Shown: positions 3,794 to 62,003 of the stretch, piece by piece
Position numbering within the stretch: the stretch's first letter is position 1
Layout of the letters: each line of letters begins with the position of its first letter
Program-made: the position numbers and the translations under genes
From: a virus
DNA: 64,000 bases
Reading direction: 5' to 3' (one strand)
IMG/VR virus record: IMGVR_UViG_3300024308_000018
Coordinates: 62,001-126,000 of that record
The notes under the pieces: model-generated
The model's input: the letters and a program-made list of their open reading frames with translations, nothing else
Told to the model about the DNA's origin: nothing
The model's database searches: none

Positions 3794-4726
3794 TTAGAAG
3801 ATCTGCTCTTCAAGTGTGTAGGTGACGCGGCTGGTACTGCTATCCGGCCCGCCGTCTTTGTAGTCGACACTCAACTGAATGTCGGAGTCATCGAAGGTGT
3901 TGTTTTCGCAGTCGGCGACAATGTTGTCGGGAACGTTGTTAAACACGCGGGGCTCTGCCAGCCACAAGCGCAGTTCGTCGTCTTCAATCTCGGGGATAAC
4001 GTCGAACACGGTGTCGCTGGACACAACGCAGTGCGGACGACGTGGACGGTTGGCTACGAACTTGGTGAGGAACGCGGTTGGCACAATTGCATCGTTGTCG
4101 AGCTTGGCGAACTCCCAAACGGCATCAACTTCCTTGAGCTTCTGCCACTCGTCGTAGCCCCAGACGCGCGCCCAGTAGCCAGACTCCGAAGGCGAAGTGA
4201 AGTCGAACGCCATGTACTCGTAGAACATGTCGCGCAGAGTGTTGAGCGCCAGCGTGCTATCGGTGATGGAGCTTTCGTCAGCGTCATCAAGCTCGATACG
4301 CTCGTTGTGGGTGAGGCCGCACTCCTTTTCGTAGGTGCGCCAGTAGCCAGCCACCTCTTCTTCAGCGGTGTCGGTGCCTGTGTAGGCAGCAACGCGTTGC
4401 GTAAGTTTCAACAACGCATGGAACAGCGGGGTGTCCACCACTACCAACTGCGCACCAATCACGTGGGCCAGCGCCGAGTACGCTGCGGCTTCACGGTGGC
4501 CGAACGATGAAACGTCAGGTCGGTCAATCATGGAGCCAACGTAGACCGCATGGGAGGACAGGAGGACGTCGCCCTTCCAGAAACTCATGAACACGCCGTC
4601 AACTTGAACGTGACACGCTGTTGTCACATCGTTGGATTGCAGGTGGTAGACAACGGCGGCACCGAGAACGTCGGGCAGCTGGCGAGTGAGTACGGCTTGA
4701 GTGAGTTGGGTGATGCGCAGTTTCAT
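3794..4726 (-). CDS. Hypothetical protein, 310 aa
   Basis: I do not recognise a family. The protein is acidic and globular without membrane segments; a LVVVDTPLFHALLKLTQ stretch near residue 95 looks like a buried beta-alpha unit. It is the first gene after the small-RNA array. A CTGTAAAAA element lies 28 bp upstream of the start, and AAGGATTCCACC forms the ribosome binding site. The final codons run to within 9 bp of the P-loop gene, so they are probably one operon. Confidence 0.88.
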   Translation of the reverse strand: MKLRITQLTQAVLTRQLPDVLGAAVVYHLQSNDVTTACHVQVDGVFMSFWKGDVLLSSHAVYVGSMIDRPDVSSFGHREAAAYSALAHVIGAQLVVVDTPLFHALLKLTQRVAAYTGTDTAEEEVAGYWRTYEKECGLTHNERIELDDADESSITDSTLALNTLRDMFYEYMAFDFTSPSESGYWARVWGYDEWQKLKEVDAVWEFAKLDNDAIVPTAFLTKFVANRPRRPHCVVSSDTVFDVIPEIEDDELRLWLAEPRVFNNVPDNIVADCENNTFDDSDIQLSVDYKDGGPDSSTSRVTYTLEEQIF

Positions 4727-4754
4727 GGTGGAATCCTTGTTTGGTTGTTGCTTC

Positions 4755-4763
4755 TTTTTACAG
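4755..4763 (-). promoter_or_regulatory. Class M promoter-like motif (CTGTAAAAA)
   Basis: On the minus strand CTGTAAAAA lies 28 bp upstream of the 4726 start and just downstream of the last array terminator. It would restart transcription into the clamp-loader operon. Part of the recurring CTGTAAACA family. Confidence 0.5.
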
Positions 4764-4806
4764 TTTCACGCACCAGAAACGACAATACCCCGCGAGCGCG
4801 AGGTAG

Positions 4807-4896
4807 AAACGAAAACGGGCAGGCCGAAGCCCACCCGTCATCATAACTTTATGCCACTTGATTAAGTGGTTGGGGCCGAAGCCCAGAGCAAAGAGC
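4807..4896 (-). ncRNA. Array RNA unit 8
   Basis: Box GCTCTTTGCTC at 4886-4896 is followed by GGGC-TTCG-GCCC, then a second stem CCACTT-AATC-AAGTGG, then the terminator GGGTGGGC-TTCG-GCCTGCCC with TTTTCGTTTC. The spacer upstream holds the best spacer stem, GGACGCG pairing with CGCGTCC. Confidence 0.6.
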
Positions 4897-4940
4897 TAAC
4901 ACTTTATCTTGGGATGGACGCGATCAGGAATACGCGTCCC

Positions 4941-5021
4941 AAAATAAAACGGGCGGCCGAAGCCACCCGTGTTACGTCATATATTCATAGAGCCGCGATA
5001 GGATGCGCGGGAGCAAAGAGC
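4941..5021 (-). ncRNA. Array RNA unit 7
   Basis: Box GCTCTTTGCTC at 5011-5021, perfect stem CCGCG-CATCCTAT-CGCGG, then terminator GGGTGGC-TTCG-GCCGCCC with a TTTTATTTT tail. The spacer upstream contains CGATA-CAA-TATCG. Confidence 0.6.
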
Positions 5022-5063
5022 AAGTGTTATTGCTGTGTGTACTATTGCCGATATTGTATCGTC

Positions 5064-5143
5064 AAAATAAAAAAGGGCAGGCCGAAGCCCACCCTTTTGT
5101 TCATTTTCATATGGATGCAGCTTGAGGGCCGCGAGCAAAGAGC
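5064..5143 (-). ncRNA. Array RNA unit 6
   Basis: Box GCTCTTTGCTC at 5133-5143, stem GCGGC-CCTCAA-GCTGC (one G-U pair), then terminator GGGTGGGC-TTCG-GCCTGCCC with TTTTTTATTTT. The spacer upstream contains GGAGA-GCGA-TCTCC. Confidence 0.6.
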
Positions 5144-5190
5144 GCCATTGAGTTTTAACAGCATGCAATTGGTTAGGAGATCGCTCTCCC

Positions 5191-5270
5191 AAAATAAAAG
5201 GGGCAGCCGAAGCCACCCCTTTTGTATCGCTTATGTCAGAAGGCCCACATGAGATGGGCGAACAAAGAAC
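5191..5270 (-). ncRNA. Array RNA unit 5
   Basis: Box variant GTTCTTTGTTC at 5260-5270, stem GCCCA-TCTCATG-TGGGC, then terminator GGGGTGGC-TTCG-GCTGCCCC with TTTTATTTT. The spacer upstream contains ACGC-AAAA-GCGT. Confidence 0.6.
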
Positions 5271-5312
5271 TATCTAAATTTGGCCAACGCTTTTGCGTCA
5301 GAACCATTCCTC

Positions 5313-5386
5313 AAAATAAAAGGGCAGCCGAAGCCGCCCATTTTGGATACGAGACAGAGTGTGTATCACACTCAGGAACAAAGAAC
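5313..5386 (-). ncRNA. Array RNA unit 4
   Basis: Box variant GTTCTTTGTTC at 5376-5386, seven-pair stem GAGTGTG-ATA-CACACTC, then terminator GGGCGGC-TTCG-GCTGCCC with TTTTATTTT. Confidence 0.6.
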
Positions 5387-5416
5387 ATCGGCCCGTCCGA
5401 ACCATAGGGCCTACAC

Positions 5417-5500
5417 AATATAAAGGGGCAGCCGAAGCCACCCCTTTCACAACTAGCTTTAGAAAACTGGAGACCAGCGTGGGCGCTGGGAACAAAGAAC
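5417..5500 (-). ncRNA. Array RNA unit 3
   Basis: Box variant GTTCTTTGTTC at 5490-5500, perfect stem CCAGCG-CCCA-CGCTGG, then terminator GGGGTGGC-TTCG-GCTGCCCC with TTTATATT. Its spacer is the longest (75 nt) and carries a CTGTAAACA element at 5545-5553. Confidence 0.6.
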
Positions 5501-5544
5501 ATTGAGGCACTGCAAAATCTTGCACCACTAGCACCACTGATATT

Positions 5545-5553
5545 TGTTTACAG
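5545..5553 (-). promoter_or_regulatory. Class M motif inside the RNA array (CTGTAAACA)
   Basis: Exact CTGTAAACA on the minus strand about 45 nt upstream of the unit 3 box. It could start transcription of units 3-8; the other spacers lack it. Confidence 0.4.
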
Positions 5554-5575
5554 ATTCTGCGGGAATCGTGTCACT

Positions 5576-5657
5576 AATAAAAATGGGCAGCCCGAAGGCC
5601 ACCCATTTGGTCTATGTGTCTTGTGAGTAAGGCGGATGCAGCCCGCGAGCAAAGAGC
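5576..5657 (-). ncRNA. Array RNA unit 2
   Basis: Box GCTCTTTGCTC at 5647-5657, stem GCGG-GCTGCAT-CCGC, then terminator GGGTGGCC-TTCG-GGCTGCCC with TTTTTATT. Confidence 0.6.
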
Positions 5658-5697
5658 AACAAGGATAGAAATGAATAATCAGAGAAAAGGCTTCCCC

Positions 5698-5783
5698 AAT
5701 AAAAATGGGCGACCGAAGTCACCCATCTTGATCGTATAAACGAAGAATTGAGAGATGCTTATGAAAAACACCGAGCAAAGAGC
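5698..5783 (-). ncRNA. Array RNA unit 1
   Basis: Box GCTCTTTGCTC at 5773-5783, a weak four-pair stem GGTG/CATC, then terminator GGGTGAC-TTCG-GTCGCCC with TTTTTATT. It is the unit nearest the upstream gene. Confidence 0.55.
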
Positions 5784-5808
5784 GGAGCATGGTAGTTATG
5801 CCTGTCAA

Positions 5809-5834
5809 TAAAAACGCCCCCGACGAGTCAGGGG
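5809..5834 (-). terminator. Terminator of the 6278-leftward operon
   Basis: Minus strand GCCCC-TGACTCGTC-GGGGGC followed by TTTTTATT. It differs from the UUCG terminators of the array and separates the protein operon from the RNA units. Confidence 0.75.
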
Positions 5835-5903
5835 CAAATGCAAAGGACTTTCAACAAAAGTGGCAGTTGGTAGGCTTCCCATCCGCACCTTAAATTATGA
5901 TGG

Positions 5904-6278
5904 TCAGACTTTTTCGCTCGTCGGTGAACGTTGTTCGTTGTACCAACGATGCAGCGGGCCGTCGGGCGGCAGCACGTAGGTTGTCGCTGGTGCAGGTTGC
6001 CCCTGCACGTTCATCTGCACAACGGGCTGCGGCGTCAGTTGCTCAACCAGCCAGCTGCTGTCCGCCGAGTAGTCCAACTGATCGGCGGAGATGCGCGCGT
6101 TGGCCCCGAGGTCGAAACTGACGGAGCGGCCACTGTCGTCAACGGTGCCGAACATGATGCACAGCGGCGACGTATCGTAAACGGTCATCACTACCGTGGG
6201 TTTCGGTTCGCTGTCCACGATACGTTGCTGCAACAAACTTGCGCGACGAACGCGCATCGCCTCACGAAGATCGGTCAT
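5904..6278 (-). CDS. Hypothetical protein, 124 aa
   Basis: No family recognised. The N-terminal 20 residues are Arg-rich and helical (REAMRVRRASLLQQR); the middle looks beta-rich; the tail is Pro/Gln-rich. AAGGAGCAGGCA precedes the ATG. It follows the 322-residue gene by 10 bp and is last before a terminator and the RNA array. Confidence 0.85.
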   Translation of the reverse strand: MTDLREAMRVRRASLLQQRIVDSEPKPTVVMTVYDTSPLCIMFGTVDDSGRSVSFDLGANARISADQLDYSADSSWLVEQLTPQPVVQMNVQGQPAPATTYVLPPDGPLHRWYNEQRSPTSEKV

Positions 6279-8027: not shown

Positions 8028-8323
8028 ATGATCTCCAGTTTTTAAAAGACGTGTTCCGCCCACGGAACGGTTAAGGTGGATTGGAATTGCTTAGTCACTC
8101 TCAACTCTATTTACCCAGTTTCCCAAACTGTAGAGCTTTTGGGTTTCTGGGCTAATGGGCTTGTTGATCCAACTTTTTGGGAATTCCGCTTTGCTTCATT
8201 CCCTGCTCGCTTCGCTTCGCAACTTGATCCTCTACTAGATCTCCAAAACGTTTGAACTTGATCCAAGCTCTGTTTGTCTCGCTTTGCTTTCTCGTCGCGT
8301 CGCTCGACAAACCTACACCCTAA

Positions 8324-8332
8324 GGTTTACAG
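8324..8332 (-). promoter_or_regulatory. Class M motif (CTGTAAACC)
   Basis: Minus-strand CTGTAAACC in the non-coding region, the closest such element upstream of the 8027 start although about 300 bp away. Confidence 0.35.
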
Positions 8333-8494
8333 ATTTCAGACCCCTGCATTTGGACAACGTTCGGGTGATCACCAACGTTGCAATGAAACAAGGATCAGGG
8401 CCTATCCCAAGTCTAGCCATAGCCATACCCCAGTAGAAGCGCAATCCATTCGATTCGAACGTTGCATGAAAACAAAAACTCCTTACCTATCAAT

Positions 8495-8503
8495 TGTTTA
8501 CAG
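8495..8503 (-). promoter_or_regulatory. Class M motif (CTGTAAACA)
   Basis: Exact CTGTAAACA on the minus strand in the middle of the non-coding region, about 470 bp from the next leftward gene. If active it makes a long untranslated leader or a non-coding RNA. Confidence 0.35.
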
Positions 8504-8855
8504 TATCATCGCGAATAGCACGTCGTATACGCAAGGGATCAGGGGCTCTACTCAGGATTCACGACAATCTACGAAAAACGACGTGCTCGCAACGGCCGAC
8601 CAATTGAGTCCCCACGCTCCTAAGTCATTGACAGGCAACGAAATTTAGTTTTCAAGCAAACGTTGATCGCATGGATTTGGAATCCAGTGCAGTGCGCGCA
8701 GAATCCATAAAGGCTTTCGCGGAATCCATGCGTTTTGAACGTTGCCCAAACCACCCTCACCGTGCACGATTTTACAACGTTGGGCCCCTTTTCAATGTTG
8801 AACGTTGCAAGAATTCCAGAAATTCAGTTTAAGGATTTTGCGCACTGGAAATGAA

Positions 8856-8882
8856 AATGGGGAAGCCGAAGCCTCCCCACGA
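8856..8882 (-). terminator. Rho-independent terminator of the 9200 gene
   Basis: Minus strand GGGGAGGC-TTCG-GCTTCCCC then ATTTTCATTTCC. Same UUCG style as the array terminators. Confidence 0.85.
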
Positions 8883-8885
8883 TCA

Positions 8886-18185: not shown

Positions 18186-19070
18186 ATGTTTGAACCAAGC
18201 CGTCGCATTCTGCACGTAGTCGTAAACCCCTCGTCTCAAGACCCCAACGGGCCGGAACTGCGCCGCGTTATTGACGCCCTGCAACGCCGTATCGAGAACG
18301 ACGGCGGTTGCGGCATTCACCAGCCAGTCGAGCTGATCTCCACCGACACGCAATTCGACTGGGATACAGACATCCACAACGTTGTCGTGTTCGACCACGA
18401 TGGCGTTACCCCAGTCGGTGCCGCGCAAGCTGCTCCCGTCGAGTACATGGTGACTGACGCTGATGGTGAATACGTCTCCAAGTTCTTCACCCTGCTGCAC
18501 ACTCTGTACGTGTTGCCTGAGTGCCGCCGCCAAGGCATTGGCCGTATGCTGATGAACGCGCTTACTGCATGCACGGAAGGTTCAAGCCACATGGAGATCG
18601 ACGTTGCACCCAACAACGTGGTCGCCCGCAACTTCTACGCCAGTATCGGCTTCCGCGCCGAGAGCCTGAAGATGACGCGCACAGCGAACAGCGTAGTGCC
18701 TGCGGATTCCAGCGAACTCGACGCCGAGTGCGAAGATATTGCGCCGCCCGTGTTCACTTTCGGTACGCCGACTGACGCCGAGCTGATCGCCATGCACGCC
18801 GCACACCTGCGAGAAGTGCCGCACTCCGTAATCGAGATCATCCGTCCCGATCACGCCAAGGGCTACACCTCATTCTGCGCCCGTGTCGATGGCGAGCTGG
18901 CCGCCGTGATCCAGACCATTGCCACTGCGGGCCATGAGCGCGAGTTGCGCCGCATCTACGCGCTGCCCGAGTACCGCAAGTTGGGCATTGAGTCCAAGCT
19001 GTGCAGCTTCTTCAACGTGTCGCCGACGCTGCTGGCCCTGTCCATGCTGTGTCCGGAACTGCCTGCATGA
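18186..19070 (+). CDS. GNAT acetyltransferase, probably two tandem domains
   Basis: 294 residues. The first domain shows LYVLPECRRQGIGRMLM (about 104-120), the acetyl-CoA-binding motif A, and NNVVARNFYASIGF, motif B. The second half repeats the pattern weakly (IYALPEYRKLGIESKL, about 259-274) without the full RxxGxG. A catalytic N-terminal domain plus a degenerate second copy is likely. The substrate is unknown; phage GNATs can modify host proteins. It overlaps the sigma-factor gene by ATGA, so the two may be co-regulated. Confidence 0.82.
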   Translation: MFEPSRRILHVVVNPSSQDPNGPELRRVIDALQRRIENDGGCGIHQPVELISTDTQFDWDTDIHNVVVFDHDGVTPVGAAQAAPVEYMVTDADGEYVSKFFTLLHTLYVLPECRRQGIGRMLMNALTACTEGSSHMEIDVAPNNVVARNFYASIGFRAESLKMTRTANSVVPADSSELDAECEDIAPPVFTFGTPTDAELIAMHAAHLREVPHSVIEIIRPDHAKGYTSFCARVDGELAAVIQTIATAGHERELRRIYALPEYRKLGIESKLCSFFNVSPTLLALSMLCPELPA

Positions 19071-20104
19071 TTCCAATCCGGAATCTAACCGGAGGACAGA
19101 TACATGAGCTGATGGATACGCTGCTGTATGCGGCGTTGAAACCGGTGATCGAGCACACCGACCTCTTCAATCCTCAGCTCGCTTACATTCTGTCCATGCT
19201 CGTCAGTAACAAGAAGCGTCGTCCCTGCACGATGGATACTGATGCCGCAACGTACACTTTGATTTGTGCGTTGCATGCCCCGCGCCATGAAAAGCTACAG
19301 TACATCAAGAAGCTCGGGCTGGAACGCCAATTCATCTACATGTTCCTGCGCAAGTTTCTTCAGACGTACCACAAGCCTTTCATGACCCACTACATCAACA
19401 TGTTGAATTCGCATGATGATAAGGCATCGTTCGCAATGCACCGCCGCAAGGTAGACGTGCTGTGTTCGAGCAGCGGGGCCCAACGACGGGTCGATCTCTA
19501 CAACACACTGATCCGTGTTGAGCGTTCGCTTCCCGAATTCACCAAGGTGTTCGACACGGTGGTGAACAACTTCAACAGCCTGTGTGAGCGCCAAGCTGCT
19601 GACCACGTGCAACGTTATCCGGCACACCAATACGATCAGCGCGACGTCGCGCAAGATCTGAAGCGTGCGGTGATCATCGGCATGAACAAGTACGACAGCT
19701 CGCGGGGCGCACAGACAAGCTACATCAAGTGGTGGTTGTATAACGCATTGACTTGCGGATCCAACGGCCACGAATACGGCTTGGCGTATACCCTGCCACA
19801 ATCGCAGAAGAAGCGCATCGCTACAGGTAACAACCAAGGCGTCAGCAACTTCAGCGTCAGTCTCGATCAGACTGCAAGTAATGACGATGACGAAGAGGGT
19901 AGTTCACTGCATCAACGGTTCGGTGGCGAGAGCCAAGACCTTGAGCAGGAGATCAACCTGACGCGTCAAGTGCGCCGCATGACGGAAGTCGCGAAGGCAA
20001 TGGATCCCTATGGCCTAGCGCGCTTGACCCTCGATATGGAAGAGGTGTTTAGCTCCGAAGAGATCGCACAAATGCGGGCGCACATGGCCCGCCAGAATCT
20101 GTAA
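19067..20104 (+). CDS. Sigma-70-family RNA polymerase sigma factor
   Basis: 345 residues. Region 2 is readable as DLKRAVIIGMNKYDSSRG then SYIKWWLYNALT, matching the core-binding and -10-reading helices (KxDxxRG...YxxWW). A following SVSLDQTASNDDDEEGSSL segment resembles the sigma 3-to-4 linker; region 4 is weak. It should redirect host core polymerase to phage promoters. The start overlaps the acetyltransferase stop (ATGA). Confidence 0.8.
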   Translation: MIPIRNLTGGQIHELMDTLLYAALKPVIEHTDLFNPQLAYILSMLVSNKKRRPCTMDTDAATYTLICALHAPRHEKLQYIKKLGLERQFIYMFLRKFLQTYHKPFMTHYINMLNSHDDKASFAMHRRKVDVLCSSSGAQRRVDLYNTLIRVERSLPEFTKVFDTVVNNFNSLCERQAADHVQRYPAHQYDQRDVAQDLKRAVIIGMNKYDSSRGAQTSYIKWWLYNALTCGSNGHEYGLAYTLPQSQKKRIATGNNQGVSNFSVSLDQTASNDDDEEGSSLHQRFGGESQDLEQEINLTRQVRRMTEVAKAMDPYGLARLTLDMEEVFSSEEIAQMRAHMARQNL

Positions 20105-61607: not shown

Positions 61608-62003
61608 ATGCTCAAACCAAAACTGATTGACCGATTGTTGATCACCGCTGCTGAAAACCGAACGCTGGTAGACCTGCGCACAATCGTCCGTGCGCAATAC
61701 AGCAACTGGCCGAATAGCCCAGCGCCGCCCTACGTTGAAATCTCAATGACCGACGAGGCCGAGATCACGAAGCTGCGCAACTCTATCAGCCGCCATCTGG
61801 TCGAACTGTACCACCGCGACGTTGCCGCTGGTAGCTTGCCTCTCTCCGCGTTGTTTGTCGGAGAGAAAACGCAAATGCCCGGCCCGCCGTTGCGCCAACT
61901 GATTGAGAAAACCCGAGGCGAACCTTTCGCCTCCGACGGTGAATGGCTCGCGTACTGGAACGAATTGGTGCGCGCCATCTATGACAGCTACAGCGGGGCC
62001 TAG
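61608..62003 (+). CDS. Hypothetical protein, 131 aa
   Basis: Helical soluble protein. AAGGATTCCTCC precedes ATG 61608. No family recognised. Confidence 0.83.
   Translation: MLKPKLIDRLLITAAENRTLVDLRTIVRAQYSNWPNSPAPPYVEISMTDEAEITKLRNSISRHLVELYHRDVAAGSLPLSALFVGEKTQMPGPPLRQLIEKTRGEPFASDGEWLAYWNELVRAIYDSYSGA

Follow-up and report, generated by a model that had tools for sequence, protein, structure and literature searches.

RNAs of the CsrB/RsmZ and CrcZ type titrate proteins by way of many copies of a short motif held in a hairpin context. In Listeria, LhrC1-5 are tandem sRNA copies that each have a terminator and their own promoters and that are conserved in sequence throughout. The pL-nutL-tL1 region of phage lambda is arranged in the order promoter, box, hairpin, and terminator. 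The gamma-proteobacterial NusB/S10 boxA consensus is GYTCTTTAANA (PMC5725501), and the boxA of Legionella CRISPR is GTTCTTTAAAA, so that the T form is natural (PMC7862264). The E. coli RrA, RrB, and RrF sRNAs lie between dual rrn terminators, as a single unit in rRNA operons, and are ligands of Hfq/CsrA (PMC8144298). In LoaP-dependent leaders, a small RNA hairpin is located upstream of an intrinsic terminator, in a single leader that precedes a biosynthetic operon and has no box (PMC12691694).

The DNA analyzed here (the window) comprises 64,000 nucleotides, positions 62,001 to 126,000 of IMG/VR virus record IMGVR_UViG_3300024308_000018, a jumbo-phage genome of 229,746 bp. Eight diverged tandem units lie on the minus strand of the window at 4811-5806; the non-coding array that they form is real and structured, and it is unique so far. 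Like CsrB/RsmZ and CrcZ, the array carries many copies of a short candidate protein-binding motif in a hairpin context, but the motif is neither GGA nor a CA-repeat and terminators lie between the copies. Like LhrC1-5, its tandem units each have a terminator, whereas promoters are not found per unit and only the box and terminator are conserved. Tandem units also distinguish it from RrA/RrB/RrF, and it shares with the LoaP-dependent leaders a hairpin upstream of a terminator, although these differ in the respects given above. The box of the array, GYTCTTTGYTC, resembles the boxA of rrn leaders, lambdoid nut sites, and CRISPR leaders in its first seven bases (a 7/7 core match in all eight copies, including the C/T at position 2) and in its placement near hairpins and upstream of termination sites. 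It departs from boxA in having G instead of A at position 8 and in differing at positions 9 and 11, such that the AANA tail is absent and an additional YTC is conserved; the array also differs from boxA systems in its eight copies, each with its own terminator, and in lacking a conserved boxB loop.

Layout and conservation of the units

The array occupies approximately 1.1 kb without credible genes, flanked by a 124-codon ORF upstream (5904-6278) and a 310-codon ORF downstream (3794-4726) that run in the same direction as the array. Small ORFs over the array (79 aa on the minus strand and 128 aa on the plus strand) were rejected as coding because boxes and terminators run inside them. Each unit consists of a 5' hairpin, a linker, the box, a second hairpin, a linker, and a UUCG terminator, all on the minus strand. 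Unit 1 (5698-5806) has its 5' hairpin at 5802-5786, its box at 5783-5773, a weak stem at 5772-5754, and its terminator hairpin at 5729-5702. In unit 2 (5576-5697), the 5' hairpin at 5697-5681 is followed by the box (5657-5647), the stem (5646-5632), and the terminator (5608-5581). Unit 3 (5417-5574) has the longest leader, 74 nt, ahead of a GTTC-type box (5500-5490), a 6-bp stem (5489-5474), and a terminator (5447-5422). The boxes of units 4 and 5 are also of the GTTC type: unit 4 (5313-5416) carries its 5' hairpin at 5411-5390, box at 5386-5376, 7-bp stem at 5373-5357, and terminator at 5339-5322, and unit 5 (5191-5312) carries the same elements at 5301-5284, 5270-5260, 5259-5243 (6 bp), and 5223-5196. 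Unit 6 (5064-5190) comprises a 5' hairpin (5190-5175), the box (5143-5133), a 5-bp stem (5132-5117), and a terminator (5098-5071), and unit 7 (4941-5063) comprises a 5' hairpin (5061-5049), the box (5021-5011), a 5-bp stem (5010-4993), and a terminator (4970-4949). In unit 8 (4811-4940), the 5' hairpin at 4939-4916 precedes the box (4896-4886), a stem with a UUCG loop (4885-4871), a linker with an extra hairpin, and the terminator (4839-4814). The 5' ends of the boxes thus lie at 5783, 5657, 5500, 5386, 5270, 5143, 5021, and 4896.

The box was exact in all eight units. Five copies of GCTCTTTGCTC were present in the array, compared to 0.02 expected from shuffled windows, and exact matches to the box elsewhere in the 229,746-bp genome numbered two, which is near chance; neither had a hairpin-terminator context when inspected by eye. 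A role of the box as a general phage promoter was rejected, since off-array matches occur at chance level only. The two half-sites are coupled, reading GCTC..GCTC in units 1, 2, 6, 7, and 8 and GTTC..GTTC in units 3-5, although this coupling may reflect one event because the three T units adjoin.

A stem begins 0-2 nt past the box. Because these stems are not homologous column by column, they were tested by direct shuffling in place of a covariance model. Their summed score was 114.5, compared to a shuffle mean of 45 and maximum of 83, and was reached by none of 3000 shuffles (per-unit p = 0.003-0.07, with the weakest stems in units 1, 2, and 8). A scan of anchor positions gave a peak at the end of the box (offsets 10-12) and a second peak at the terminator. 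The loops of the post-box stems differ among the eight units in both length and sequence. The 5' hairpins, located between the preceding terminator and the box, summed to 109.5, compared to a shuffle mean of 74 and maximum of 96.5 (0 of 500 shuffles).

A TTCG-loop terminator ends each of the eight units. By a strict criterion, 8 of the 28 terminators in the whole genome fall within 4814-5836; these are seven unit terminators that passed the filter and a CTCG-loop terminator at 5836, while the terminator of unit 1 lies outside the strict set and was identified from its fold. The CTCG-loop terminator (5815-5836, minus strand) belongs to the upstream gene (5904-6278) and is not part of a full unit. 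Ahead of it, in the region 5815-5860 (minus strand), is GTCCTTTGCAT, a box-like sequence with three mismatches, which together with the CTCG terminator is possibly a decayed ninth unit before unit 1, or a chance occurrence.

MAFFT alignment and pairwise tests indicated that only the box and terminator are conserved between units; the leaders and the stretches from box to terminator were nearly unalignable. Terminators of the array type occur commonly both in this genome and among related phages, and therefore the conserved feature specific to the array is the box together with the stem next to it. We propose that the locus arose through ancient tandem duplication. The original prediction of eight minus-strand units, with a shared box whose half-sites vary together in a 5:3 split, stems in the same position that are non-homologous in sequence, and one UUCG terminator per unit, was borne out, and its stems clearly surpassed shuffled sequence, the comparison it had named as a possible refutation. 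Its estimate of 74-90 nt from box to terminator was correct at the lower bound and too high at the upper, with 74-86 nt measured from the box to the end of the T-tract. The 5' hairpins, the promoter-like site in unit 3, and the resemblance to boxA were not part of that prediction.

Transcription signals

The promoter-like motif AAATCTGTAAACAATA has 30 sites in the genome, of which approximately half sit 16-131 nt upstream of an ORF. One of the best in the genome, CAGAATCTGTAAACAAATAT at 5540-5559 (minus strand; 24.3 bits; about 1.5 per 100,000 positions genome-wide), lies in the leader of unit 3 and faces the non-coding stretch with no credible ORF behind it; the first ORF there has 79 codons and a GTG start, spans two units and their terminators, and is regarded as chance. 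A second site (4750-4769, minus strand; 16.5 bits) lies just upstream of the gene at 3794-4726 and is the candidate for that gene's own promoter. No other unit contains the phage promoter-like motif, no leader motif was shared among the units, and the minus strand showed no sigma70-like site. The leader, from terminator to box, is 23 nt in unit 1 and 30 nt in unit 4, and is filled by the hairpin.

The phage encodes a sigma factor (phrog_17569, 19001-20104), and matches to the RNAP beta family (Rpb2_6) and to the NusB family were not found; the phage therefore probably uses the host RNAP, on which Nus factors act. The earlier suggestion that the units are separate small RNAs agrees with the intrinsic terminator found in each unit; per-unit transcription did not hold, as promoters private to each unit were not found and the only site is that in unit 3. 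Since the units lack private promoters, separate RNAs would need read-through or processing, and RNAs that end at each terminator by way of read-through are possible. Abundant RNA from all eight units is not assured, because most have no visible promoter.

Further AAATCTGTAAACAATA sites lie at 8503 and 8332 (minus strand), with approximately 26 others in addition to those at 5540-5559 and 4750-4769, and ATCTGTAAAT occupies the same kind of place in related phages. The window also contains an apparently non-coding gap of 820 nt at 8064-8885. In this gap GCAACGTT is repeated, two promoter-like motifs occur, and a UUCG terminator marks the upstream end; phages JA11, Yoloswag, and Y3 likewise have a gap at the syntenic place.

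Candidate functions of the boxes

We tentatively favor the interpretation that the array specifies terminator-ended RNAs with many protein-binding sites, which would most likely titrate NusB/S10. Only the box and terminator keep their sequence and the stems keep position alone, which fits a multi-copy protein-binding RNA. The GYTCTTT start is that of boxA, and the varying C/T falls on the degenerate position of the consensus, which suggests a boxA-like binding site. In its native flanks, the box has a weak tendency to be more single-stranded than in shuffled ones (0.57 compared to 0.50, and 0.68 compared to 0.61), a slight rise reached by 7 and 5 of 100 shuffles. The protein-binding interpretation is further supported by the top promoter-like site facing a non-coding stretch while the next real gene has its own. 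Against identity with boxA, position 8 of the box is G, and boxA does not account for the GYTC tail, which is conserved and takes part in the coupled C/T change. No perfect match to the consensus was found in the whole genome, and because the full GYTCTTTAANA does not match, the box was not classified as boxA. A boxA of the GTTCTTTG type had no match in two Firmicute drafts. That the box works like boxA is nevertheless the leading idea because of its core match, its hairpin neighbors, and its terminator context.

From these features we infer transcription of the array, protein binding, NusB/S10 as the partner, and titration as the purpose. Transcription would start at the phage promoter in unit 3, arrive from the upstream operon, or both, and would stop at one of the UUCG terminators, generating a ladder of short RNAs. 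On each RNA, at least one boxA-like site would be accessible between two hairpins, and many copies of an RNA-binding factor with sequence specificity would bind to these sites. Host NusB/S10 is the foremost candidate for this factor; titration might draw it away from host rRNA antitermination, or the phage might recruit it for its own use. It is conceivable, at a lower probability than the general interpretation, that the eight boxes are boxA mimics that capture host NusB/S10 as an RNA decoy, disabling or redirecting rRNA antitermination during infection. Binding of NusB/S10 would mean that a phage RNA acts in trans to attack or commandeer the Nus complex, whereas the known use of boxA by phages is in cis. 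Should the box bind another factor, the array would be a natural eight-copy ligand and thus good bait for a still unknown protein that binds RNA during jumbo-phage infection. Because testing the boxA idea is cheap, the array merits an experiment.

An alternative that we consider doubtful, yet the strongest of its rivals, is a relay of antitermination in cis, in which each terminator would be preceded by a nut-like site made of the box and hairpin and would let RNAP through only when Nus or phage factors are loaded, making the array a steep gate or a read-through timer. The order of promoter, box, hairpin, and terminator from 5559 resembles pL-nutL-tL1, and transcription of units 4-8, for which no promoter is visible, depends on read-through. 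In lambda nut and rrn leaders, boxA precedes a terminator of the same strand (PMC12691694), and every box of the array is placed likewise. However, one boxA is normally enough for a whole transcript and eight would be unneeded, the bacterial Nus complex works mainly on Rho termination, and the downstream gene has its own promoter-like site. The hairpin loops are unconserved, which leaves no boxB-like recognition; in a lambda-type nut site, an N protein reads the conserved loop of the boxB hairpin, and no such hairpin was found.

Somewhat less probable again is a titration or loading site for a different factor, for example a phage or host dimeric RNA-binding protein that reads GYTC-UUU-GYTC as a direct repeat. 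The GYTC tail is conserved as well as the boxA-like part, and the half-sites change together, although the three adjacent units may have inherited that change from one event. No protein stands out as a candidate; the flanking orphan proteins match no family, and their single-sequence models were of very low confidence (mean pLDDT 37 and 48).

Two other explanations are unlikely, to a similar degree. The units could be eight base-pairing sRNAs with different seeds in their unconserved stems and linkers, as the terminator per unit, the single-stranded linkers, and the unit-specific sequence would allow. The linkers, however, paired with phage translation starts no better than shuffled linkers, which leaves sRNAs against phage genes unsupported; the pairing match of unit 8 was to an ORF antisense to the array itself, and private promoters are lacking. 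The box as an antisense to phage starts was likewise rejected, its pairing being no better than that of shuffles. Alternatively, a stacked terminator block could insulate the downstream genes, with the box and hairpins as by-products of the duplication of a terminator module. Genes on either side run the same way, and near-identical single UUCG terminators occur in related phages, but such a block leaves eight exact boxes, unrelated stems in a fixed place, and diverged linkers unexplained; single terminators are the rule elsewhere in the genome, and relatives have no such stack. A DNA-level element, in which a replication or packaging protein binds the direct repeats and the hairpins are cruciforms, is very improbable despite nearby replication genes and direct repeats spaced 114-157 bp apart, as that spacing is only weakly helical (R = 0.50 over box positions) and DNA binding does not need terminators and boxes that all share one strand and order.

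Related phages and searches for further arrays

By protein sequence, the genome is distantly related to jumbo phages of Erwinia, Dickeya, and Yersinia. The clamp loader, a peptidase-like protein, and phrog_21298 share 22-40% identity, in the same order, with homologs in phages of Erwinia (Alexandravirus, Yoloswagvirus, Sasquatchvirus), Dickeya (Salmondvirus), and Yersinia. In IMG/VR, 21 loci at 35-39% identity were found and none closer, in a set from which records of this genome or very near ones were possibly left out, and no close relatives of the array-flanking genes were found. The original prediction had proposed comparing related phages for gain and loss of units, and this yielded no array: tandem terminators were absent from every relative locus examined, and the box array was absent from the five relatives scanned for boxes. 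Matches by blastn in Erwinia and Dickeya phages were short pieces, interpreted as single terminators.

Exact-pattern scans of 2.9 million viral contigs, which miss diverged forms, identified no second array, nor did annotated phages or Rfam. In agreement with the earlier view that no described RNA family has this layout, Rfam gave nothing above the gathering cut-off over approximately 228 kb of the 229.7-kb genome; the sub-threshold matches to MicX, CrcZ, and Chlorobi-1 fell far below it. A tandem-box scan of viral contigs returned 96 stretches, none with boxes plus terminators, and box plus UUCG-terminator scans of viral and bacterial genomes contained no second array among the matches listed; the four survivors examined were all single, in or beside coding sequence. 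Tandem UUCG terminators formed clusters no larger than two. No description of such an array was found in the open-licence literature, represented mostly by titles and abstracts.

Among the matches listed from a scan for tandem canonical boxA, only the 109-bp repeats of corynephage P1201 were found. There are approximately seven of these near-exact tandem copies, and each contains a canonical boxA match, GCTCTTTAAAA; the region that holds them (L383:2180-2980, minus strand) carries the annotation gp13 to gp17, and they are probably unrelated to the array.

Yoloswag, JA11, and Y3 also have a non-coding, structured-looking gap ahead of the clamp loader, but it is different from the array. Erwinia phage Yoloswag and Dickeya phages JA11 and JA29 have in common an unannotated pseudoknot-like RNA motif upstream of the clamp loader (L104:3360-3440 and L103:2360-2440, minus strand; L108 and L110 near 18300-18450, plus strand), which has no Rfam match. 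The motif is arranged as TAAGACTC, a hairpin with a CCCNC loop, and TTAATCTGNGGGGGAG. Both its hairpin (GTGCG/CGCAC compared to GGCGCG/CGCGCC) and its loop pairing (CCCGC/GCGGG compared to CCCTC/GAGGG) appear to covary.
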